Below, in pieces: positions 5,392-18,889 of a DNA stretch of 28,559 nt. The position numbers and the translations under genes are program-made. Under the pieces are notes generated by a model. It made no database searches, was not told where the DNA came from, and saw only the letters and a program-made list of their open reading frames with translations. Each line of letters begins with the position of its first letter. Positions within the stretch are counted from its first letter, which is position 1. The stretch is from a virus: the IMG/VR virus record IMGVR_UViG_3300025892_000105, positions 1 through 28,559 of that record; one strand, 5' to 3'.

Positions 5392-7413
5392 ATGCAAAAA
5401 CTTTTATATATAGCTCCTCATTTATCAACTGGAGGATTACCACAATATTTAACAAAAAAGATAGAATTATTACAAGATGAATTTGATATTTATCTTGTAG
5501 AATACACGGATTTTACTGGAGGAAAATTAGTAGTCCAAAAAAATAAAATTTTAAATTTAATTCCTAAAGACAAATTTTATACTCTTCAAGAAGATAAAAT
5601 GGAATTAATTAAAATAATTAAAGAAATACAACCTGATATTATCCATAGTGAAGAAATTCCTGAATTTTATATGGATGAAAAATTAGCTCAAGCTTTATAT
5701 TCAACCGATAGAAAATATATTATTGTAGAATCATCTCATGATTCATCTTTTGACACAACCTCAAAAAGATTTTTTCCTGATAAATTTATGTTTGTATCTA
5801 ATTGGCAAATTGAACAATATAAAGACATAGATATACCTAAAATATTAGTAGAATACCCCATCGACTACGTTGATAGACCTAATAGAGAAGATGCGTTAAA
5901 ACGTTTAGATTTAGATCCTAATAAAAAACATATTCTCCATATTGGTTTATTTACTTCAAGAAAAAACCAAAAAGAATTTTTTGAATATGCAAAATCATTA
6001 CCAGAGTATGAATTTCATAGTGTAGGAAACCAGGCAGATAATTTTAAATGGTATTGGGAACCTTTAATGAAAGATATTCCTGATAATTTAACATGGTGGA
6101 ATGAAAGAACAGATGTAGAAAATTTTTATCAATCAATGGATTTATTTCTATTTACATCTAGAGGAACAGCTAATGATAAAGAAACAATGCCTTTAGTTAT
6201 TAGAGAAGCTTTGTCATATCAAATACCCCAATTATTATATAATTTAGAAGTTTATCAAGATTATTTTGATAAATATGATTCTATTAATTATTTAAATTTT
6301 GATAACTTTAATGAAAATGTTTTATTAATTAAAGATCAACTATCCTCCCCTAAAAAAGATCTTAGTGAACAAGAAGCTTATGTAGTTTCTACATATCCTA
6401 TTAATTCTTCTATAGAAAAAACTACAATAGAATGTTTAAAATCTTTAAAACAAGATAATAGAATTATAATTACAACATCCCACACACCAGTATCAAAAGA
6501 AATACAAGAACTTTCTGATTATGTTATATATGATAATAATAATATTTTAACTAATCATACATTTGGGTGGTGGTATAATGAAGATAATAAAAAATTTAAA
6601 GTAAACTTTTCTATTTCAAATACAGGAAATAGCCAATATCATGGTCCTTCATGCCATACTAATTTTTATAATGCCTCAAATTTGTGTAAAAAATTAGGTA
6701 TTAATAAATTCTATGGAATTAATTATGACTACCATTTATTAAAGAAAGAAAATATTGATGAATTATCTAAAATATTAGATGATTATGATATGGTAACTAC
6801 TAGAACTTTAGAAGGTAATGGAGATACACCTCAACTATTTACAGCTTTTTTTGGAGCTAGAGTTGATAATTTTACTAAAAACCAACCATTTATTGAAAAT
6901 GCTTATGATTGGGATAAATTACAAAGAACTTATAAAACTCCTTCTAATGGGATGGAATGTTTATGGTATCATATCCTTGAAAACAATTCAAAAATATTTT
7001 TTGAAAGTAAAAAAAATTGGAATAGATTTATGGATGATACTTTTACATTTGTAGACTACTCCCAATGTGAGTATTTCTCAGTTATTCCAGTATATGAAAA
7101 TATTCAAAAAGATGGATTAGAAATTAATAATCCTACTAATAACATTGCAATATTTCTAAAAACTAGTAATAAAAAAGATAATAGGATATTTAATTTAAAA
7201 ATATATGAAGGAGAAAATCTTATAGAAGAAGAAAAATATGAAATTACAACATATTTTAGTTCTTATAAAATATTACCTGAGTCTAAATATAGATTAGTAC
7301 TTGAAATTTATGATATAAATTCTAATAAAATTATTGAAGTAAAAGAAATTATAATAGATCAAAATTATTTAGAAAATATTCTTCCAAAAAATGGTAAATT
7401 TGCTTTAAAATGA
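5392..7413 (+). CDS. Multi-domain glycosyltransferase (GT-B, second GT-like and C-terminal beta domain)
   Basis: This 673-residue protein looks like three parts. Residues 1 to about 325 are a GT4-like GT-B unit: an N-terminal strand followed by the glycine loop STGGLPQYL, a second Rossmann-like half opening with ILHIGLFTSRKN, and the nucleotide-sugar signature MPLVIREALSYQIPQ around 266-280, where the second Glu of the usual E-x7-E is present. Residues about 328-560 form a second unit (starts YVVSTYPI; contains FYGINYDYHLLKK near 440) that resembles a GT-A fold glycosyltransferase-like domain without a canonical DxD. Residues about 563-673 are a beta-rich domain. It overlaps the next gene by ATGA, so the three glycosyltransferases form one operon. 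Placement between two fibre genes favours virion-protein glycosylation over DNA or surface-sugar modification, but acceptor and sugar are unknown. Confidence 0.75.
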   Translation: MQKLLYIAPHLSTGGLPQYLTKKIELLQDEFDIYLVEYTDFTGGKLVVQKNKILNLIPKDKFYTLQEDKMELIKIIKEIQPDIIHSEEIPEFYMDEKLAQALYSTDRKYIIVESSHDSSFDTTSKRFFPDKFMFVSNWQIEQYKDIDIPKILVEYPIDYVDRPNREDALKRLDLDPNKKHILHIGLFTSRKNQKEFFEYAKSLPEYEFHSVGNQADNFKWYWEPLMKDIPDNLTWWNERTDVENFYQSMDLFLFTSRGTANDKETMPLVIREALSYQIPQLLYNLEVYQDYFDKYDSINYLNFDNFNENVLLIKDQLSSPKKDLSEQEAYVVSTYPINSSIEKTTIECLKSLKQDNRIIITTSHTPVSKEIQELSDYVIYDNNNILTNHTFGWWYNEDNKKFKVNFSISNTGNSQYHGPSCHTNFYNASNLCKKLGINKFYGINYDYHLLKKENIDELSKILDDYDMVTTRTLEGNGDTPQLFTAFFGARVDNFTKNQPFIENAYDWDKLQRTYKTPSNGMECLWYHILENNSKIFFESKKNWNRFMDDTFTFVDYSQCEYFSVIPVYENIQKDGLEINNPTNNIAIFLKTSNKKDNRIFNLKIYEGENLIEEEKYEITTYFSSYKILPESKYRLVLEIYDINSNKIIEVKEIIIDQNYLENILPKNGKFALK

Positions 7414-8360
7414 AAATAGCTCAAATTAATCCAGGATGTGGTATACCAATTCCACCTACAACATGGGGGGCAATTGAAAAAATTGTTTGGGAATTTATTT
7501 GTAATTTAAAAAAATTAGGACATGAAGTTGATTTAAAATGGTCAAATGAAGTTAAAAAAGGAGATTATGATATAGTAATGGTTCATGTAGCTAATCTTGC
7601 TATTGAATTAGCAAATCGTAATATTCCTTATATATTTCAACACCATGACCATCATGCTTATCATTATGGTAAAGATTCTAAGGTATATAAAGAAAATTTA
7701 GAAGCCATGGAAAGGTCAGTTATATCTTTAGTACCAGCTCGTTATTTAGTAGATTATTTTGAAACAGATAAAGTTATATATTTTTCTCATGGAGTTAATA
7801 CTGATGATTTTTACCCAGCAATAATACCCCCCTCTAAACATAAACTGCTTATGTTAGCTAATAATGGGTTAGGGGGTTATGGAGAATATGATAGAAAAGG
7901 ATTTACTTGGGGGGTTCAAACCGCAATGTCCTTAAATTTACCTATTACTATTGCAGGACCTAAAAATAATTTAAATTGGTTTAAAGCAAATCCATGGGTA
8001 TATGGTTATCCTAAATTAGATATAATATGGGAGCCTTCAAATAAAGAATTAAGAGATTTATATACATCTCATACAATATTCCTCCATCCTTCAAATTTAG
8101 AAGCAGGACATCCAAATTTAACTTTATTAGAAGCAGCAGCTTGTGGTTTACCAATTTTAGGTTGGATTGAAATGGAAACTACATTTGACGGTTTATGGAG
8201 AACCCCACGTGATATAAATAAAATGATAGTAGGATTAAATACTATTATTGAAGAATATCCTAATTATAGACAAAATTCATTGAAAACTTCAAAAGAATTA
8301 TCATGGTTAAATAGAGCAAAAGAATTAGAAATTTTATTTAAAAAAGTTATAAATTTATGA
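7410..8360 (+). CDS. GT4-family-like glycosyltransferase
   Basis: A 316-residue single GT-B enzyme. The N-terminus has a compact Gly/Pro-rich loop (GCGIPIPPTTWGAIEKIV, residues about 9-26) in the position of the GT4 phosphate loop. The C-terminal half carries HPSNLEAGHPN followed by LLEAAACGLPILG (residues about 225-250), the classical nucleotide-sugar binding E-x7-E motif of GT4 retaining transferases. The length is slightly short for GT4 (usually 350-400), with no membrane segment, so it should be cytoplasmic. Start overlaps the upstream stop (ATGA at 7410) and its end overlaps the next start (ATGA at 8357), which indicates tight translational coupling. It may extend or initiate the same glycan as its neighbours; the substrate cannot be read from sequence. 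Confidence 0.85.
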   Translation: MKIAQINPGCGIPIPPTTWGAIEKIVWEFICNLKKLGHEVDLKWSNEVKKGDYDIVMVHVANLAIELANRNIPYIFQHHDHHAYHYGKDSKVYKENLEAMERSVISLVPARYLVDYFETDKVIYFSHGVNTDDFYPAIIPPSKHKLLMLANNGLGGYGEYDRKGFTWGVQTAMSLNLPITIAGPKNNLNWFKANPWVYGYPKLDIIWEPSNKELRDLYTSHTIFLHPSNLEAGHPNLTLLEAAACGLPILGWIEMETTFDGLWRTPRDINKMIVGLNTIIEEYPNYRQNSLKTSKELSWLNRAKELEILFKKVINL

Positions 8361-9550
8361 AGAAAATTTTAATAAAAGAATATAAAAATACAATTTTAAA
8401 TCCCAAACCCCCTTTACACCCAAAAAATTCACTTAATGTAGATTTTGTAAATGGGTGTAAAGTAGAAATTAATGGTAATTACGAAACTAAATATAAAGTT
8501 CAATTTATAAACCAGTTAAATAATGATATTGTATATGAAGCTACTATTTCTAATAATATGTGGTGCAAAACTAATATTAGGTATTTTATTGATTTTATAA
8601 TTAAAGTAGAAGATTTAACAACTGGTAAAATAGCATATGAACATATATTTAATGCTAAAGATAAAAAAGTATATATTCATTTAGCTTCAAAAGCTTTAGG
8701 GGATACTTTAGCTTGGGTTCCTTATTTAAAAGAATTTAAAGATAAACATAAATGTGAGTTGGTTGTATCTACATTTCATAATAAAATGTTCAACACCCAA
8801 TACCCAGATATAAAATTTGTAGAACCTGGTACTGAAATTTTTGGTTTATATGCTATGTATGAAATTGGGTGGCATTACCAAGAAAGTGGTGAGGTACAAT
8901 GGGATTGTAACCCCCAAGATTTTAAAAAATATCCACTCCAACAAACAGCAACAGATGTTTTAGGATTAGAATATACTGAAATAAAACCTAAAACCACTTT
9001 TATAAATAAAGGTTCTAAAATAGAAGGAGATTATGTGTGTATAGCTCCACATGCATCGGCACATGCTAAATATTGGATGTACCCTGGAGGGTGGCAAAAA
9101 ATAATTGATTATCTCAGATTTAAAGGATATAAAGTTGTAATGATTACCCAAGAGCCATTAAATGATGAATGGCATGATTCTAAATTAGGGGGGACATTAA
9201 AAAATGTAATTGATAAAACGGGTGATTATTCTTTAAGTGAAAGAGCAAATGATTTAATGAATGCTAAAGCTTTTATAGGATTAGGAAGTGGGTTAAGTTG
9301 GTTAAGTTGGGCTGTGGGTTGTCCTACAATTTTAATTAGTGGATTTAGTGAGTATTATAGTGAATTTAAAGATTGTGAACGAATATCACCCCCAAGTAAT
9401 AAGTGTAAAGGATGTTTTAATAAATACCAACTAGATGCTGGGGATTGGGAGTGGTGTCCTGAACATAAAGATACAAATAGACACTTTGAATGCACCAAAT
9501 CAATTACACCTGAAATTGTAATTAAAGCAATAAATAATCAACTTGAGTAA
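8357..9550 (+). CDS. Autotransporter-type O-heptosyltransferase (TibC/BAHT family) homologue
   Basis: This 397-residue protein matches the bacterial autotransporter heptosyltransferase family from end to end. It has an N-terminal strand-loop-strand beta domain (residues about 28-100), then KALGDTLAWVPYL (112-124), PLQQTATDVLGLEY (193-206), PHASAHAKYW (231-240), and GLGSGLSWLSWAVG (308-321) followed by ISGFSEYYSEF. The C-terminal cysteines at about 350, 353, 367 and 379 (CxxC-x13-C-x11-C) match the metal finger that binds iron in TibC. Family members transfer heptose from ADP-heptose to Ser of adhesins such as TibA and AIDA-I in the cytoplasm. Here the obvious candidate acceptors are the Ser/Thr-rich fibres on either side (inference). 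The phage gene would depend on host ADP-heptose, or the donor sugar may have changed. Confidence 0.9.
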   Translation: MKKILIKEYKNTILNPKPPLHPKNSLNVDFVNGCKVEINGNYETKYKVQFINQLNNDIVYEATISNNMWCKTNIRYFIDFIIKVEDLTTGKIAYEHIFNAKDKKVYIHLASKALGDTLAWVPYLKEFKDKHKCELVVSTFHNKMFNTQYPDIKFVEPGTEIFGLYAMYEIGWHYQESGEVQWDCNPQDFKKYPLQQTATDVLGLEYTEIKPKTTFINKGSKIEGDYVCIAPHASAHAKYWMYPGGWQKIIDYLRFKGYKVVMITQEPLNDEWHDSKLGGTLKNVIDKTGDYSLSERANDLMNAKAFIGLGSGLSWLSWAVGCPTILISGFSEYYSEFKDCERISPPSNKCKGCFNKYQLDAGDWEWCPEHKDTNRHFECTKSITPEIVIKAINNQLE

Positions 9551-11497: not shown

Positions 11498-14092
11498 ATG
11501 GCAGAAACATTAATATCCCCAGGAGTACTAGCAAGAGAAAATGATCAATCTCAGATCACAGCTCAACCAGTACAAGCTGGTGCAGCATTGATAGGACCAA
11601 CAGTTAAAGGTCAAGTAAACATTCCAAAGCTTATTACTACATATAGTGAGTATCAAGCTGATTTTGGTACTACTTTCTTAAGTGGTTCAGCAACAGACAC
11701 TAGTGAATACACATTCTTAACGTCAATTTCAGCTTACAATTACTTTGCAAATGGAGGTACTTCTTTGATTGTTACTAGAGTAGCATCAGGATCATTTACT
11801 CCAGCATCTTCCTCTAAAATTGCTAATGATCAAGAAACAGGACAAATTTTAGCTGGAACTAATTTATTAAGTTCTGCCGTAGGTGGTGGAGGTGGAGATG
11901 CTCCATTCTCTGGAACACCTTCTTTTACAGGAGGGTCAGGAACAGGATTAACACTTAATGCTGCTGTAACAACAAATGGTGGTGTTAAAGTAGCAGTAGA
12001 TACTTTACTTGATAATTTAAATGCAGGTACAAACCCAGTTAATGCCGTAGATGGATCTTACACAGTTCCATTAGTTGGAGGAACAGGAACTAACCTAACA
12101 GCTTCAATTACAGTATCAGGAAATACAGTTACTTCTATCACAACTCCTATAGCAACATCAGGTTCAGGTTACACAGCTTTAGATGCTTTAACTTTCCCAG
12201 CAGGTGCTTTATCAGATGGTCAATTAATAACAGCTCAAAATATATTATCTATATCTAATGGGGCTTCTTTAGCAATAGGAGCAGGTGGTCCCGTAACTGG
12301 AGTAGGTATCACAACAGTTACTGGAGGTGCAGTACAATCAGGAACAGGAGCAACAGTTGATATAACATCAGATGGAGTAAATGTTTCAGTATTAACAGTA
12401 AATGGATTAGGAACAGGATATGTTACAGGTAATATATTAACAATTTCACAAGCAGATTTAGTTACAGCTGGGTTCGCAGCCGCAGCAGGAGATTTAACAA
12501 TTACATTAACTCCTTCAAATGTTGAATTATCAACAGCAGGAGCCTTAACATTACAAGCTGCAGATTTATTTTACTCATTAACAACTTTAACTGCTGCTAC
12601 AGAAGGTACAGGATATGAAGTTAATGATGCATTAACAATTGCAGCAGGTGCTATGGGTGCAAATTCATCAGAATGTATAATTACATTAGTAGATGCTGAT
12701 ATAGTAGATGGAAATGCATTTATATTAGAATCAATTGGTCAAGGTGTAATTATGAATAGTGCAGGAGCTGAAAATTCTCAAGGTGCTTTAACAAATGGAA
12801 CATCAGATAATTTAAGATGGGAAATTCAATCACCTAATACTTCTTCAGGTACATTTAGTGTAATTATTAGACAAGGTAATGATACTACAAGAGCAAAATC
12901 AGTACTTGAAAGCTTTAATGGTGTATCATTAGATCCAATGTCCCCAAATTATATTTCAAGAATAATTGGTGATCAAACAAAAACATTATTAGGTGCTGGA
13001 ACATCAGATCCATACTTACAAACAACTGGATCTTATGCTAATGCTTCAAGATATGTAAGAGTAAAAGAAGTTAGGTTTAAAACACCTAATTATTTAGATA
13101 ATAGTGGTCAACCAAAGGCTGAATATACAGCTTCAATCCCAGTAGCAGGTTCAGGATCATTTGGAGATGCTCAAGGATCAATATTAACAGGACAAGGAAA
13201 ATATTATGATAAAATTACAGCTAATGATTCTCAAGGTTTAGTAGGTGGTAATTATACAGATGCTATTAATTTATTAGCAAATAAAGATGATTACAAATAT
13301 AATATTATTTCAACTCCAGGTTTATTCCAATCAGGATATGGAACAACATTAACAAAATTAGTTTCAAACACTGAAAATAGAGGAGATAATATTGTAATAT
13401 TAGATCTTGAAGCTTATGATTCTTCAATTACAGCTATTACATCAACAGCAGCTGGGCAAGATACATCATATGCTGCTTCATATTGGCCTTGGTGTATGAT
13501 AACAGATCCAGATTCTAACCAAAGAGTTTGGGTACCAGCAGGAACATTAATTCCAGGAGTTTATGCCGCTAATGATAGAACAGCAGAAGCATGGTTTGCT
13601 CCAGCAGGTATTAATAGAGGTGGATTAGGAAATGTAATTCAAGCTGAAAGAAAATTAACTCAAGCGAACAGAGATACATTATATACAGGTAAAGTAAATC
13701 CAATCGCTACATTCCCAGGTAGAGGAGTTGTAGTATTTGGTCAGAAAACTTTACAAACTCAAGCCTCAGCTTTAGATAGAGTAAATGTTAGAAGATTATT
13801 AATTGCATTAAAAAATTACATTAGTCAAGTATCGGATAATTTAGTATTTGAACAAAATACAGCAGCTACAAGAAATATATTCTTAGGCCAAGTTAACCCA
13901 TACCTGGAATCAGTACAACAAAGACAAGGTTTATACGCGTTTAAAGTTGTAATGAACGATTCAAATAATGGACCCGACGTAATTGATAGAAACGAATTAA
14001 GAGGTGCGATATACATTCAACCAACTAAAACGGCTGAATTCATTTACTTAGATTTCAACATTCTACCAACAGGAGCTGAATTTCCTGCATAA
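11498..14092 (+). CDS. gp18: Contractile tail sheath protein (T4 gp18-like) with insertion domain
   Basis: An 864-residue protein with the N-terminal hallmark of phage sheath proteins (LISPGVLARENDQSQI, then GAALIGPTVKG, residues about 5-40). The family-typical C-terminus has AIYIQPTKTAEFIYLDFNI, the region that mediates interlocking between sheath subunits. It is about 200 residues longer than T4 gp18. The extra length is a Gly/Thr/Ala-rich insertion at roughly residues 125-430 holding three related motifs: GSGYTALDALTF (about 222), GTGYVTGNILTI (305) and GTGYEVNDALTI (370). These probably form surface beta-hairpin repeats on the outside of the tail. The tube gene follows directly, the usual sheath-tube order. 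Confidence 0.95.
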   Translation: MAETLISPGVLARENDQSQITAQPVQAGAALIGPTVKGQVNIPKLITTYSEYQADFGTTFLSGSATDTSEYTFLTSISAYNYFANGGTSLIVTRVASGSFTPASSSKIANDQETGQILAGTNLLSSAVGGGGGDAPFSGTPSFTGGSGTGLTLNAAVTTNGGVKVAVDTLLDNLNAGTNPVNAVDGSYTVPLVGGTGTNLTASITVSGNTVTSITTPIATSGSGYTALDALTFPAGALSDGQLITAQNILSISNGASLAIGAGGPVTGVGITTVTGGAVQSGTGATVDITSDGVNVSVLTVNGLGTGYVTGNILTISQADLVTAGFAAAAGDLTITLTPSNVELSTAGALTLQAADLFYSLTTLTAATEGTGYEVNDALTIAAGAMGANSSECIITLVDADIVDGNAFILESIGQGVIMNSAGAENSQGALTNGTSDNLRWEIQSPNTSSGTFSVIIRQGNDTTRAKSVLESFNGVSLDPMSPNYISRIIGDQTKTLLGAGTSDPYLQTTGSYANASRYVRVKEVRFKTPNYLDNSGQPKAEYTASIPVAGSGSFGDAQGSILTGQGKYYDKITANDSQGLVGGNYTDAINLLANKDDYKYNIISTPGLFQSGYGTTLTKLVSNTENRGDNIVILDLEAYDSSITAITSTAAGQDTSYAASYWPWCMITDPDSNQRVWVPAGTLIPGVYAANDRTAEAWFAPAGINRGGLGNVIQAERKLTQANRDTLYTGKVNPIATFPGRGVVVFGQKTLQTQASALDRVNVRRLLIALKNYISQVSDNLVFEQNTAATRNIFLGQVNPYLESVQQRQGLYAFKVVMNDSNNGPDVIDRNELRGAIYIQPTKTAEFIYLDFNILPTGAEFPA

Positions 14093-14146: not shown

Positions 14147-14635
14147 ATGGCAGTATTAGACCCAAACGAAATATTTTTCACAGCTTTTGAACCAAAAGTA
14201 GCTAATAGATTTATTATGTATGTTGATGGATTTCCATCATATATAATCAAAGGTATTAGTGGTTTAGGGTTCGCGCAAGATGAAATTACATTAAACCATA
14301 TTAACACTTACAGAAAAGTAAAAGGTAAGTTAAGATGGAATGATATTACAATGCAATTATTTGACCCTATTACTCCTTCAGGCGCTCAAGCTGTAATGGA
14401 GTGGGTTAGATTACACCATGAATCTGTAACAGGTAGAGATGGTTATAGTGATTTTTATAAAAAAGATCTTACTATTGATGTATTAGGTCCTGTAGGTGAT
14501 GTGGTTTCAGAATGGATAATCAAAGGTGCATTTATCAAAGATGGGTCATTTGCTGATATGAACTGGGATACCGATAATGAAGCTCAAAACATCGATCTTA
14601 CAATTGGAATGGATTACTGCGTGTTAAATTTCTAA
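14147..14635 (+). CDS. gp19: Tail tube protein (T4 gp19-like)
   Basis: A 162-residue protein of the usual gp19 length (T4 gp19: 163). It begins with a short segment followed by NRFIMYVDGFPSYIIKGISG, then KGKLRWNDITMQLFDPI, a helix with AVMEWVRLHH, and a terminal strand INDLT-like (IDLTIGMDYCVLNF). These match the tube-fold pattern of T4 gp19 and cyanophage relatives. It polymerises as hexameric rings inside the sheath. It sits immediately downstream of the sheath gene and upstream of a strong terminator, so it probably ends a sheath-tube transcription unit. Confidence 0.95.
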   Translation: MAVLDPNEIFFTAFEPKVANRFIMYVDGFPSYIIKGISGLGFAQDEITLNHINTYRKVKGKLRWNDITMQLFDPITPSGAQAVMEWVRLHHESVTGRDGYSDFYKKDLTIDVLGPVGDVVSEWIIKGAFIKDGSFADMNWDTDNEAQNIDLTIGMDYCVLNF

Positions 14636-14661: not shown

Positions 14662-14688
14662 AGCTTGGCTTCGGTCAAGCTTTTTTTT
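14662..14688 (+). terminator. Rho-independent terminator after tail tube
   Basis: AGCTTGGC and GTCAAGCT form an 8-bp stem (one G-T pair) closed by a TTCG tetraloop, followed at once by T8 (14681-14688). It lies 26 nt after the tube stop in the longest gap of the window (103 nt) and is the clearest intrinsic terminator here. Confidence 0.9.
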
Positions 14689-14738: not shown

Positions 14739-15539
14739 ATGAGTGAAGTTAAAACGGGAACTGAGAATACCTCACCCCAACCTCAATTAAAAGAAGAACC
14801 AAAATACAATTTTCCAACTGAAATTGTTGAATTACCTTCAAAAGGATTAGTTTATCCTGAAGATTCCCCATTAGCTAGTGGTAAGATTACAATGAAATAT
14901 ATGACAGCTAAGGAAGAAGATATTATTACAAATCAAAACTATATCCAAAAAGGAACAGCTATAGATCATTTATTAAATGCCCTAATTATTACCCCAGGTG
15001 TTAAGCAAGATGATTTAATTACTGGGGATAAAAATGCAGTTTTAATAGCATCACGAATCTTAGGATATGGAGCTAATTATAAGTTTGAATATATGGGTGA
15101 AAATGTTGAAGTAGACTTATCTACCTTAGAAAATAAAGAAATAGATTATTCTTTAATAGAAGGTAGAACAAATGAATTTGAGTTTACTCTCCCTCACACA
15201 GAAACACCAATAACATTTCGACTTTTAACAGGAAAAATTGAAAATAAAATTACTGCTGAGTTAAAGGGTTTAGCAAAAATTAATAAGTTAAAATCAGCAG
15301 AAATGTCAACTAGAATGAAGCATTTAATTGCATCTGTAAATGGTAATGATGACAGAAAAACTATTAGAGATTTTGTTGATACTAATTTATTAGCTAGAGA
15401 TGCTAAAGCATTAAGGGATTATATTGCAAAAATTCAACCTGATGTTAATATCAAATTTGATTTTGAAGACTATGATGGTGAAATCAAAGAAAGAGAAATT
15501 CCAATTACTTCAGGGTTTTTTTTCCCTGACCCCGAGTGA
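14739..15539 (+). CDS. gp26: gp26-like baseplate/tail assembly protein (short, unshifted product)
   Basis: A 266-residue protein resembling the T4 gp26 baseplate family. A charged N-terminal tail is followed by FPTEIVELPSKGLVYPEDSP (residues about 28-47), ITMKYMTAKEEDIITNQNYI, and a central TFRLLTGKIENKI segment. Proteins of this family were assigned to the baseplate hub in T4. Its position between tail tube and tape measure is that of the tail-assembly chaperone in other phages. The frame ends with SGFFFPDPE at a TGA, just after a T8 run from which translation could shift into the next frame. The start is the first ATG, 14 nt after a TTATAAC element. Product identity is good; the functional role (hub or chaperone) is open. 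Confidence 0.85.
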   Translation: MSEVKTGTENTSPQPQLKEEPKYNFPTEIVELPSKGLVYPEDSPLASGKITMKYMTAKEEDIITNQNYIQKGTAIDHLLNALIITPGVKQDDLITGDKNAVLIASRILGYGANYKFEYMGENVEVDLSTLENKEIDYSLIEGRTNEFEFTLPHTETPITFRLLTGKIENKITAELKGLAKINKLKSAEMSTRMKHLIASVNGNDDRKTIRDFVDTNLLARDAKALRDYIAKIQPDVNIKFDFEDYDGEIKEREIPITSGFFFPDPE

Positions 15540-15548
15540 GGCGAGGGA
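15513..15548 (+). other. Candidate programmed frameshift site
   Basis: GGGTTTTTTTTCCC (15513-15526) lies in the overlap, with the zero-frame stop at 15537-15539. On T8, phenylalanine tRNA can re-pair perfectly after a +1 or -2 slip. TCCCT (15523-15527) and AGGGA (15544-15548) can pair, with an inner CC/GG, forming a GC-rich hairpin in an AT-rich region. Confidence 0.6.
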
Positions 15549-15849
15549 GTATAGAATAGGTTTATTTTCTCAAATTCATGATATAATTTTTCACGGTAAC
15601 GGAGGTTTTGATTATATGACAGTATATAATATGCCCTTATGGTTAAGAAAATTTACATTTAATAAATTAAATGCTCACTATGAAGAATTAAATTCACAAA
15701 AATCAGGAACATCAACAGATAATTTAAGTGAAGCTAGAAGTATTTTACAAAAAGCACAACAACAAAAAACACCCCAACAGAAAAAAACCCAACCAAAAGT
15801 TAAGGTTCCTGACTTTGTTACAAGTACTAGAAAGACGTCACAAAAGTGA
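15520..15849 (+). CDS. Frameshift-encoded C-terminal extension (gp51-like), giving a 369-370 aa fusion
   Basis: The frame encodes about 109 residues starting FSLTPSEAREYRIGLFSQI, then HGNGGFDYMTVYNMPLWLRK and FTFNKL, ending in a Gln/Lys-rich tail. The middle part resembles the small protein that follows gp26 in T4-like phages (called gp51, hub assembly catalyst; recalled, not searched). Its only upstream ATGs (15424, 15472, 15475) lie inside the gp26-like gene and would add residues that merely shadow that frame. The first ATG downstream falls within the conserved segment. Fusion to the upstream protein by +1 or -2 shifting on the T8 run at 15516-15523 is therefore the best explanation. Alternatives are an internal coupled start or a one-base homopolymer error in the assembly. 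Confidence 0.65.
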   Translation, partial: FSLTPSEAREYRIGLFSQIHDIIFHGNGGFDYMTVYNMPLWLRKFTFNKLNAHYEELNSQKSGTSTDNLSEARSILQKAQQQKTPQQKKTQPKVKVPDFVTSTRKTSQK

Positions 15850-15857
15850 TGTCTTTC
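15830..15857 (+). other. 12-bp stem-loop across the stop codon before the tape measure gene
   Basis: GAAAGACGTCAC and GTGATGTCTTTC pair over 12 bp (one G-T) around an AAAA loop. The TGA stop (15847-15849) is in the 3' arm. No T-run follows, so it may be a weak terminator, an RNA processing site or an mRNA stabiliser. A TATTTATAA element begins 3 nt downstream. Confidence 0.6.
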
Positions 15858-15886: not shown

Positions 15887-18800
15887 ATGGCTAATTCTGA
15901 TGAAATAAAAAGACTAACAGCAGAACTTAAACGTTTAAGGTTAGAATTTGGAGAAACTGAAAATTATAAAATAGTATCTACTAATGAAGTAAATATTATT
16001 AAAGAGCTTAATTCACAGATCTTAGAATATAGAAATTCTTTAGATGAAATAGCAGATAGTTGGGGTACGGTTAAAGGAATTATTGATGATGTTCAAAAAC
16101 AATTTGGAAAATCTGCTGATGGTTTTAAAACAGCATTAAGTTCATTTAATAGACTTCAATCAATTAGTAATAAGTTTAGAGAAGATGCTTTAGGTCTTCA
16201 AAAAATGAGTTCTAAAGAGATTAAAAGTAATATTACAAACATTCAAAAAGAAATTGTTGTTCAACAAGAAGCATTAAATTTACTTATAGCAAAATCAAAA
16301 ACAGCAGAGGGGTTAACTGAGAATGAAAAAAATATGGTTGAGGAGCTACAATCTGAAAATATTCAGAATAAATTAGCTTTAAAAACTGCAAGAGCAAGAC
16401 TTACTCAAGAGCAAAAAATCCAAAAAACATTAGGTATAACAGGTACTGTTGTACAAGGTTTAGAAGGAACCTTTAAGAAGATAGGAATGAATGCTGATTT
16501 CTTTGAAGACTTAAATGAAGATATGTATGAAGCTGCCAAAAGTGGTAGTAAACTAAAAGTAGCTTTAACAGGTCTTAAAGGTATTGGAAAAGGTATAGCA
16601 GGACAATTAAATGATCCTGTAGTAATATTTGGTTCTATTTTTAAAGGACTAAAAGCATTATATCAGCTAACTGGTAAATTTATAAAACAACAAAAAGAAG
16701 CATTTTTAGCTACATCTGGAGCTTTTGGTAAAGGAGCAATTAAAAATATGGAAAGTACTCAAGGTTTATTTGAGAACTTAACAGCATCTGCTAATGCTTT
16801 AAGAACAGAACTAGGTTTTGTTCCCGATGTAAATAAACAAATACTAACCGGAGTTCATACTTTAGTAGATGGGTTTGGGATGTCAGGAGCTGAAGCTGCT
16901 AACTTATTTAAACTTAGTGAAGAATTAGGAATTAGTGTAGCTGATATGCCGGGTCATATCGCAGGATTAGGAGGTGAAATGGAAGCTGCTAGTGGAATGG
17001 CTATTGACTTCCAAGAAGCTATGGGAATTGTAGCTAACGCTAGTGCTAGTACTAGATTTAATATGAAAGGTAGTGCTAATCAATTAATAAGAGCAGCAAA
17101 CTTTGCTTCTCTTTTAAATATGAGCATGTCTGATATTCAAAATGCAGCTGAATCAACTTTAGACTTTGAAAGTTCTATTCAAAAAGAAATGGAAGCTGAA
17201 TTATTTTTAAATAAAAACTTAAATTTAGAAAAATATAGATATGCAGCTCTAACTGGAGATGCTACAACACAAGCTTCAGAATTACAAAGATTAATTAAAG
17301 AAAATGGTCCTTCCTTAAAAGGTAATGTTTTAGCTCAACAGAAATTTGCAGATGCTTTAGGAATATCAAAAGAACAACTTGCAGAGTCTATTGAATCTAT
17401 GGAACTTCAAGAAAAATTAGGATTTAAGGCTGTGGGTACTCAAAAAGCTCTAGATATTTTAATGAAACAAGGCTTAACTAAAGAACAAGCTATGTCTAAG
17501 TTAAGGCAACAAGGTGCAGATGGAGTTACAAACGCTATTGAAGCTGAAAAAGCATTTCAAAATAGATTTGAATTAGCTCAAAGAAAATTCCAAGAAGCCT
17601 TTACAGGTTTAGCCGAAAAAATATTTTCACCATCAAATATGGCTAAAATTGATAAAATGATTAGCGCTTTTGCAGATTTTATGGGAGGTCCTGTAATGCA
17701 AGGTGTTATTAATTATCTTCCCCACATAGCAGCAGCCTTAGCAGCTTTATCAGTTCTTAAAATGTTCAATCCTATCCAAAATGTAGGAATAATGAATGTA
17801 GCTCGTATGAATGGTGGTATGGGTGGAGGTGGTATGGGTGGAGGTGGAGGTGGTTATGGTTCTAGTGGTAGTGGTGGAAAAAGAGGTAAAAAAGGTAAAG
17901 GTAGTAGAGGTAGAGGTAGTAGAGGTAGAGGTAGAAGAGGTGGAAGAAGAGGTGGAAGAGGAAGAGGATTAGGTGGATTAGCTATTGGGTTAGGAAGCAT
18001 GTTAGCTATGGATATGGCACTTAGTAGTGCTGATAATGCTATAGCTGGAGATGAAGGTGGAGATGGTGGTGCTTCAACGTCAGCAATGGGTACTGGAATG
18101 TTAATGAATACTGGAATAGCAGGTGCTGAAGTAGGTGCCGATGTTATAGGTAATAATATAGCAAATAAAGGGGCTAAAGCTACTAGCTCTGGTGGTGGAT
18201 TTTTATCTAAACAAATGGCTAAATTAAAAGGAGCAGGAGGAGGAATGTTAAATTTAGGTGCTAAAGCCAAAGATTGGGTAGGGTCAAAAATCGGAGGTAT
18301 TTTTCCTAAAATATTAGGAACAATTAAAAAACCATTAAGAGGAGTTTTAAGTAAAATTCCATTAGTTGGTGCTATTATCGAAGCTATATTTACTGGAATG
18401 GATGTAAATGCTATTGCAAAATCACAAGATTTATCCAAAGAAGAAATGTATGCCGATATGGGAGCATCCGTAATATCAGGAGGATTAGGATTAACAATGG
18501 GTTCATTAGCAGCAGCAGCAGTTTCATCTTTACAAGCTGTAGGTATACCAGGTTGGTTACTCTCAGGAGCTGCTTTTATGGGGGGTGATTGGTTAGGAAG
18601 ACTATTAGGTAATGCTATTTCAGACCATATAGGAGGACCTTTATTAGGTAAATCTATATTTGATTTATTTTATAAAGATGCACCTAAAGAAATGGCAACT
18701 GGAGGTATTGTAACTGGACCTACAAATGCTATAGTAGGAGAAGCAGGTGCTGAAGCTGTTGTACCATTAAATGAATTTTATGCTAAAATAGACGAACTCA

Positions 18801-18889
18801 TACAAGTAGTTAAAGATGGGGGGGATGTTTATTTAGATGGAGCAAAAGTAGGTAAATCTTTAGTTATGGCGACTTCTAAAATAGGTTAA
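15887..18889 (+). CDS. Tail tape measure protein
   Basis: A 1,000-residue protein in the usual place after tube and chaperone-like genes. Residues 1 to about 190 are charged and coiled-coil-like. A long helical middle (about 190-620) has Ala/Met-rich amphipathic stretches. Residues about 642-692 are a striking Gly-rich then Arg/Lys-Gly tract (GKRGKKGKGSRGRGSRGRGR and on). Hydrophobic segments follow near 693-712 and 860-905, suitable for membrane insertion during DNA ejection. The C-terminus has ATGGIVTGPTNAIVGEAGAE, a motif found near the end of many tape measure proteins. By the tape measure rule, 1,000 residues would fit a tail of roughly 150 nm (about 0.15 nm per residue), though non-helical tracts make that approximate. 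Confidence 0.9.
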   Translation: MANSDEIKRLTAELKRLRLEFGETENYKIVSTNEVNIIKELNSQILEYRNSLDEIADSWGTVKGIIDDVQKQFGKSADGFKTALSSFNRLQSISNKFREDALGLQKMSSKEIKSNITNIQKEIVVQQEALNLLIAKSKTAEGLTENEKNMVEELQSENIQNKLALKTARARLTQEQKIQKTLGITGTVVQGLEGTFKKIGMNADFFEDLNEDMYEAAKSGSKLKVALTGLKGIGKGIAGQLNDPVVIFGSIFKGLKALYQLTGKFIKQQKEAFLATSGAFGKGAIKNMESTQGLFENLTASANALRTELGFVPDVNKQILTGVHTLVDGFGMSGAEAANLFKLSEELGISVADMPGHIAGLGGEMEAASGMAIDFQEAMGIVANASASTRFNMKGSANQLIRAANFASLLNMSMSDIQNAAESTLDFESSIQKEMEAELFLNKNLNLEKYRYAALTGDATTQASELQRLIKENGPSLKGNVLAQQKFADALGISKEQLAESIESMELQEKLGFKAVGTQKALDILMKQGLTKEQAMSKLRQQGADGVTNAIEAEKAFQNRFELAQRKFQEAFTGLAEKIFSPSNMAKIDKMISAFADFMGGPVMQGVINYLPHIAAALAALSVLKMFNPIQNVGIMNVARMNGGMGGGGMGGGGGGYGSSGSGGKRGKKGKGSRGRGSRGRGRRGGRRGGRGRGLGGLAIGLGSMLAMDMALSSADNAIAGDEGGDGGASTSAMGTGMLMNTGIAGAEVGADVIGNNIANKGAKATSSGGGFLSKQMAKLKGAGGGMLNLGAKAKDWVGSKIGGIFPKILGTIKKPLRGVLSKIPLVGAIIEAIFTGMDVNAIAKSQDLSKEEMYADMGASVISGGLGLTMGSLAAAAVSSLQAVGIPGWLLSGAAFMGGDWLGRLLGNAISDHIGGPLLGKSIFDLFYKDAPKEMATGGIVTGPTNAIVGEAGAEAVVPLNEFYAKIDELIQVVKDGGDVYLDGAKVGKSLVMATSKIG

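Follow-up and report, generated by a model that had tools for sequence, protein, structure and literature searches.

Background

In phage lambda, two overlapping reading frames between the tail tube and tape measure genes are expressed by frameshifting as a short (gpG) and a long (gpGT) protein. Frameshifting in tail genes is, according to a review, conserved in long-tailed phages except T4 (PMC5009743). In T4, the hub assembly chaperones are listed as including gp26 and gp51; gp51 is required but absent from the virion, the status of gp26 is disputed, and the tape measure protein gp29 is itself a hub protein (PMC3004832). No published link of gp26 or gp51 to frameshifting or to G/GT was found in the open-access literature searched. 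Here, a locus of a marine phage is described in which a gp26-like gene (ORF A) is followed, in another frame, by a C-terminal extension (frame B), and is compared with these systems.

Methods

The sequence analysed, henceforth called the window, was an IMG/VR viral contig (IMGVR_UViG_3300025892_000105) taken at its full length of 28,559 bases. Scanning IMG/VR with the A protein yielded at least 80 loci, or 81 with the window copy; this set includes the window copy (L001) and an identical contig (L002). After removal of near-copies, 66 non-redundant loci remained among the matches listed, and 55 listed loci differed by more than 10%. The cyanophage set consisted of DSL-LC02 and 80 further loci; 80 loci were readable through the junction. 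Scans with the A proteins of phages RM378 and GXN1 (Streptococcus) added almost nothing new. A tree of 37 A domains was rooted at midpoint; it contains three long rows, and the order of its deepest events is unsure. The label “-1” in the tree also covers split cases and Ackermannviridae, whose site is unclear.

Results

Gene order and junction in the window

The window holds a contractile-tail gene block comprising sheath, tail tube, ORF A, frame B, and tape measure (Table 1). The A/B pair sits between the tail tube and tape measure genes, as it does in the phages immuto, SP-15, and LIS04; this placement had been proposed in the initial annotation and was borne out by profile and BLASTP matches. 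Terminator-like hairpins flank the pair on both sides, which suggests a transcription unit of its own. The tail sheath protein (11498-14092) is long (864 aa) with Pfam sheath domains recognised only in its C-terminal third, which suggests that a large domain is inserted or sits at the N-terminus. Two glycosyltransferase-like genes (PF00534, weak; PF01075, E 1.5e-8) lie shortly before the tail genes, at 7410-9550.

Table 1 Coordinates of features at and around the A/B locus, in positions of the window
Feature	Position	Strand	Basis
Tail tube protein (gp19-like), gene preceding A	14147..14635	+	Pfam PF06841 E 3e-5 (under curated cut-off); phrog_4542 E 7e-23
Intrinsic-terminator-like hairpin between tail tube and A	14662..14688	+	Terminator annotated at same place in Bacillus SP-15
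ORF A, 266 aa, gp26-like, putative short form (lambda gpG analogue)	14739..15539	+	phrog_150 matched by 24/25 clade members; Foldseek to T4-like hub proteins
Predicted frameshift fusion A-B, 369 aa by +1 (370 by -2), putative lambda gpGT analogue	14739..15849	+	
T8 slippery run, zero frame TTT TTT TT	15516..15523	+	T7 core invariant in clade
ORF B, 110 aa plus stop, +1 frame, helical C-terminal extension of the putative long form	15517..15849	+	Position corresponds to T4 gp51 C-terminus
CCTGAC just 3' of T run; zero frame Pro-Asp, +1 frame Leu-Thr	15525..15530	+	Near-invariance in clade
Zero-frame stop TGA, end of short form	15537..15539	+	Sequence
Intrinsic-terminator-like hairpin at end of B	15830..15857	+	
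Tape measure protein, 1000 aa, gene following B	15887..18889	+	BLASTP E 6e-29 to annotated tape measure protein of Flavobacterium phage immuto

The end of A reads GGG TTT TTT TTC CCT GAC CCC GAG TGA, and throughout this overlap the +1 frame, that of B, has no stop. The T8 run with a zero-frame stop close behind, as initially noted, was confirmed, with 13 bases between the two. Although the second frame is open over 15424-15849, position 15424 is merely a mechanical TTG, the first after a stop, and homology of B begins not there but at the T run (15517). Translation of the window with one base skipped at the junction gave 369 residues without a stop, in keeping with the 369-370 residues initially predicted for the fusion. 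The predicted +1 junction peptide, ...SGFFSLTPSEAR, has one Phe fewer than the -2 product. Positions 15510-15529 form a perfect inverted repeat, TCAGGG-TTTTTTTT-CCCTGA, whose loop is the T8 run. As a general element of the clade this hairpin was probably ruled out, since of the fetched loci only L003 and the two identical contigs, the window and L002, show it.

Conservation of the junction

Protein similarity to B was found in the same +1 frame directly after the T run in all of the 81 listed loci, a recurrence which, as a comparative result, is far beyond chance. All seven T were invariant in 55 of the 55 listed loci differing by more than 10%, where third codon positions nearby carry about 0.1 bit. 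The run was a T7 in 44 and a T8 or T9 in 22 of the 66 listed non-redundant loci, and was followed by GGCCTGAC or CCCTGAC in nearly all of them. Relatives with T7 carry TTTTTTTGG and are still out of frame. Both junction Phe codons are invariant in every locus, as against TTT 567 and TTC 119 for Phe codons elsewhere in A, which points to selection. Within CCTGAC, the bases C, C, G, A, and C were invariant and the T was kept in 53 of the 55 listed loci. In the +1 frame this motif forces the Leu codon CTG, which otherwise makes up 8/220 Leu codons in B and 24/1595 in A. Dual coding of Pro-Asp and Leu-Thr may explain the conservation of CCTGAC, a stimulatory role in the shift being the other option; why the short form keeps Pro-Asp remains unexplained.

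Differences in B between relatives, read in the +1 frame, amount to 0.25/0.16/0.49 per codon at positions 1/2/3, and because they concentrate at codon position 3, frame B looks translated. No ATG, GTG, or TTG precedes the conserved part of frame B in 22 of the 66 listed non-redundant loci, and 47 of these 66 lack an ATG. In some loci, a stop in frame B lies one or two bases upstream of the T run. Given the missing starts and these stops, the change of frame must therefore take place at or after the T run and before the stop of A. The initial annotation had postulated a programmed frameshift at the T8 run into a second frame without a credible start, had named the search for relatives with conserved T runs and the same frame offset as a check, and had counted seven T in one continuous gene and relatives with a clean separate start among the refuting outcomes. 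With the offset kept in 81/81 listed loci, T7 invariant, and T7 relatives out of frame, the check was passed and the first of these outcomes was not seen; as to the second, the starts missing in 22 of the 66 listed loci agree with the postulate as well, the support being strong and comparative throughout. Relatives of A/B are also present in Flavobacteriales MAGs, which suggests Flavobacteriia hosts.

The same +1 arrangement was found in isolate phages, with the junctions AGC TTT CTT TGG CCT GAC in Flavobacterium immuto, AAC TTT TTT TGG CCT AAG TAA in Microcystis Mel-JY01, TCC TTT TTT TGG in Rhodothermus RM378, GAG TTT TTT AGT in Listeria LIS04, and GAA TTT TTT CAC in Bacillus SP-15; it is present as well in Streptococcus GXN1 (TTC TTT CGT) and LR756508 (AAC TTT CTA), which, like immuto and SP-15, have no long T run. 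In every +1 relative, a zero-frame Phe codon (Leu in immuto) is followed by a base which permits re-pairing in +1, i.e., TTT-T, TTT-C, or CTT-T. B is annotated as a hypothetical protein of 36 residues in immuto and as a short ORF in SP-15. Elsewhere, the C-terminal piece of B alone is annotated as a tiny separate gene, gp51 or hypothetical protein (L195:2301-2396, L082:5851-5961, L194:2321-2440).

Other phages have the extension in a different frame or as a gene of its own. In cyanophage DSL-LC02 and Aeromonas Ah1, the gp26 gene ends with GAT TTT TTC NNN TGA and the next domain lies in the -1 frame. This frame holds B in 80/80 readable cyanophage loci, and the classical -1 heptamer T_TTT_TTC is present in 37/38 non-redundant cyanophage loci. 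T_TTT_TTC or T_TTT_TTT also occurs in P-SSM7, pf16, Bhz51, OLIVR5, Atu_ph04, phiN3, and the Straboviridae member VS2. A -1 shift at T_TTT_TTY is thus inferred for Kyanoviridae, Aeromonas Ah1, and Vibrio VS2. In a third state (LR756511, Pseudomonas Cygsa01, and Vibrio D508), B forms an ORF of its own that starts with an ATG. In Ackermannviridae (Se_AO1, Kevin; L201, L204), the extension lies in the -1 frame and has no ATG; just before the stop of A, ATTTTC / GTTTTC is found in place of a standard heptamer.

Relation to gp26 and gp51 of T4

The PHROG family phrog_150 (“baseplate hub”) was matched by 24/25 members of the window clade (best 3.7e-14), and more distant members match PF12322; the window's own A had no Pfam match and no significant PHROG match. 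In the structure model of the fusion, the A part mostly has pLDDT >85 and the helices of B about 50-60, and a Foldseek search of this model against BFVD returned T4-like hub proteins (E 1e-18 to 1e-8). HHalign gave no significant match when window-clade A was compared directly with T4 gp26, with gp51, or with cyanophage A, which is why the link from window A to T4 is transitive, running through intermediates, the fold, and the tree. Between window-clade B and cyanophage B, similarity was weak (E 7e-4, probability 27%); the extension helices follow the same long-short-long order in the window model and the gp51 model. The most probable PDB match of the window model was the HK97 chaperone 2ob9 (0.41), which at E 1.2 is not significant, and the gp51 model had no match to solved tail-assembly chaperones (folds considered: HK97 2ob9 and YqbN 3klu).

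T4 gp26 and gp51 are paralogous (E 4.5e-20; both PF12322), the Pfam domain spanning all of gp26 and residues 1-201 of 249 of gp51. As read from these alignments, gp51 is a gp26-like domain to which a C-terminal extension of some 45 residues is added. HHalign places the cyanophage extension on gp51 residues 200-250 (E 3e-10), and when the fusions and gp51 are aligned together, the junction Phe-Phe shares a single column, at which T4 gp26 stops. The initial description of A as gp26-like is accordingly upheld by the phrog_150 and Foldseek matches, though through intermediates only and with the window's own A unmatched, while its “gp51-like extension” holds for the gp51 extension, which corresponds to B, and not for the rest of gp51, which is a gp26 paralog.

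If gp26 and gp51 replace the short and long forms, two PF12322 genes are expected in T4-type genomes and one in frameshift-type genomes. Two copies were found in 5/5 T4-type genomes and one in 13/13 frameshift-type genomes with a match; two frameshift-type genomes, immuto and Mel-JY01, had no PF12322 match, being beneath the reach of the profile. In the tree, gp26 and gp51 group together in a single clade (98/97) within the frameshift phages; closest to this clade are Ah1, VS2, and Bhz51 (89/95), each with a single copy. The +1 phages make up a clade of their own (100/100). Copy number and tree together fit an ancestor that frameshifted and a single duplication on the line to T4.

Discussion

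We regard a programmed frameshift at the T run, +1 and less likely -2, as very probable, the shift itself being inferred without protein or reporter data. The majority of ribosomes would translate A to its stop and yield the short form, and a minority would slip at the Phe-Phe codons, where the P-site tRNA-Phe on TTT would re-pair one base ahead (TTT-T to TTT) and enter the +1 frame, so that the A-B fusion is made. The efficiency of the shift is inferred as well, and for the window itself the direction, +1 or -2, is unresolved. No distinctive RNA stimulator was detected downstream (mean z -0.6 to -0.9, vs -0.06 to -0.5 upstream), nor any conserved structure there, and a Shine-Dalgarno-like motif upstream was present in 12 of the 55 listed loci against a control rate of 13%, which is weak.

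Entry into the frame by -2 slippage, as in phage Mu, would give a fusion of 370 residues with one more Phe; at the window site T7/T8 lets tRNA-Phe re-pair at -2 as well as at +1, and the Mu tail genes provide a precedent (PMC5009743). We nevertheless hold it to be improbable, as -2 re-pairing would be mismatched at the junctions of LR756508 and GXN1, where +1 (TTT to TTC) pairs fully, and both fall in the same clade as the window. Long homopolymer runs can also cause transcriptional slippage, and RNA polymerase slipping on T8 would produce mixed mRNAs, some of them in frame. The T8-T9 runs in part of the clade would allow this, but most of the listed clade members have T7, the frame relation is kept with runs as short as TTTCTTT and TTCTTT, and in some relatives such slippage is unlikely because the run is only three T; as an account of the family it is very unlikely.

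Equally little weight is given to B as a separate protein made by re-initiation or coupling. The phages with a separate B gene show that B can have its own ATG, and many cyanophages have an ATG just after the stop of A. In the window clade, however, the listed loci without start codons described above stand against it (22/66 without ATG, GTG, or TTG, 47/66 without ATG), conservation begins at the T run, ahead of any start, and the T run itself is invariant; a CTG start at CCTGAC is not retained in distant relatives. That the junction is a homopolymer also raises the question of a sequencing or assembly error in what is really one continuous gene. This is practically excluded, since the same offset occurs in 81/81 listed loci and independently sequenced isolates show the same arrangement with different and shorter runs.

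With a programmed frameshift as the preferred reading, there is good reason to think that A and B form a short/long pair of G/GT-like tail-assembly chaperones which was replaced in T4 by duplication, the shift, its direction and efficiency, the partners, and the function all being inferred. Gene position, the short/long architecture, and T4 genetics make a chaperone function probable. If lambda G/GT serves as a guide, the tape measure protein would be coated by A domains, a few of which would carry the B extension and with it recruit subunits of the tail tube or hub, and both A and A-B would depart before tail completion. The assignment of gp26 and gp51 to the chaperone family, made in the initial annotation, is well supported on the side of position and architecture, and its functional side, i.e., binding and product ratio, remains inferred. 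That the pair works like G/GT is likely; homology to G is left open, the structural evidence being only a hint. It is also conceivable, if unlikely, that the frameshift is real and the pair acts only in baseplate hub assembly and not as a lambda-type tape measure chaperone, as the description of T4 gp26 and gp51 as hub assembly chaperones (PMC3004832) and the lack of a significant structural match to lambda-type chaperones would have it. Against this, the gene adjoins the tape measure gene and the short/long architecture matches lambda G/GT, and the two roles may be one, as the T4 tape measure gp29 is a hub protein (PMC3004832).

In the proposed course of events, the T4 ancestor would have duplicated the gene, so that gp26 corresponds to the short form and gp51 to the long form and the frameshift is no longer needed. 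Replacement of the frameshift pair by gene duplication in T4 is well supported by copy number and tree, evidence that is confined to sequence. It is reasonably likely that the T4 superfamily carries a G/GT chaperone system in four states (+1, -1, split overlapping genes, and the T4 duplication), and that T4 lost the frameshift by duplication, the gp26:gp51 expression ratio taking the place of frameshift efficiency. The apparent exception of T4 would thereby be explained, as gene 26 seems to be frameshifted in its relatives, and in T4 the two products have come to be encoded by paralogous genes. In the best-studied contractile phage, the contribution of gp26 and gp51 to hub assembly has remained unclear; a testable role as tape-measure/hub chaperone pair is obtained for them, and in many genomes of cyanophages and myoviruses, genes labelled “gp51” or “hypothetical protein” appear to be mis-annotated. 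That two clades reach the same fusion by opposite shift directions constitutes a natural experiment on the evolution of frameshift sites.

Comparison with known systems

As in bacterial prfB (CUU UGA), a P-site tRNA would slip +1 onto UUU, immuto having CTT TGG; unlike prfB, the window system has no A-site stop codon and no conserved Shine-Dalgarno stimulator and is not autoregulatory. The frameshifts of the Mu and HSTV-2 tail chaperone genes differ from that of the window in slippery sequence and protein family. What they have in common with it is a tail chaperone gene that accesses the +1 frame, by -2 in phage Mu and by +1 in the haloarchaeal myovirus HSTV-2 (PMC5009743). With lambda gpG/gpGT, the window shares a pair of overlapping frames, placed after the tail tube gene and before the tape measure gene, from which short and long forms would arise by frameshifting, whereas the shift is -1 in lambda and would be +1 (or -2) in the window, and the window family (PF12322/phrog_150) has no significant sequence or fold similarity to lambda-type chaperones. 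T4 gp26 and gp51, in turn, are two separate paralogous genes without a frameshift, but belong to the same protein family (PF12322), with gp26 ending at the Phe-Phe junction and gp51 continuing into a B-type extension.
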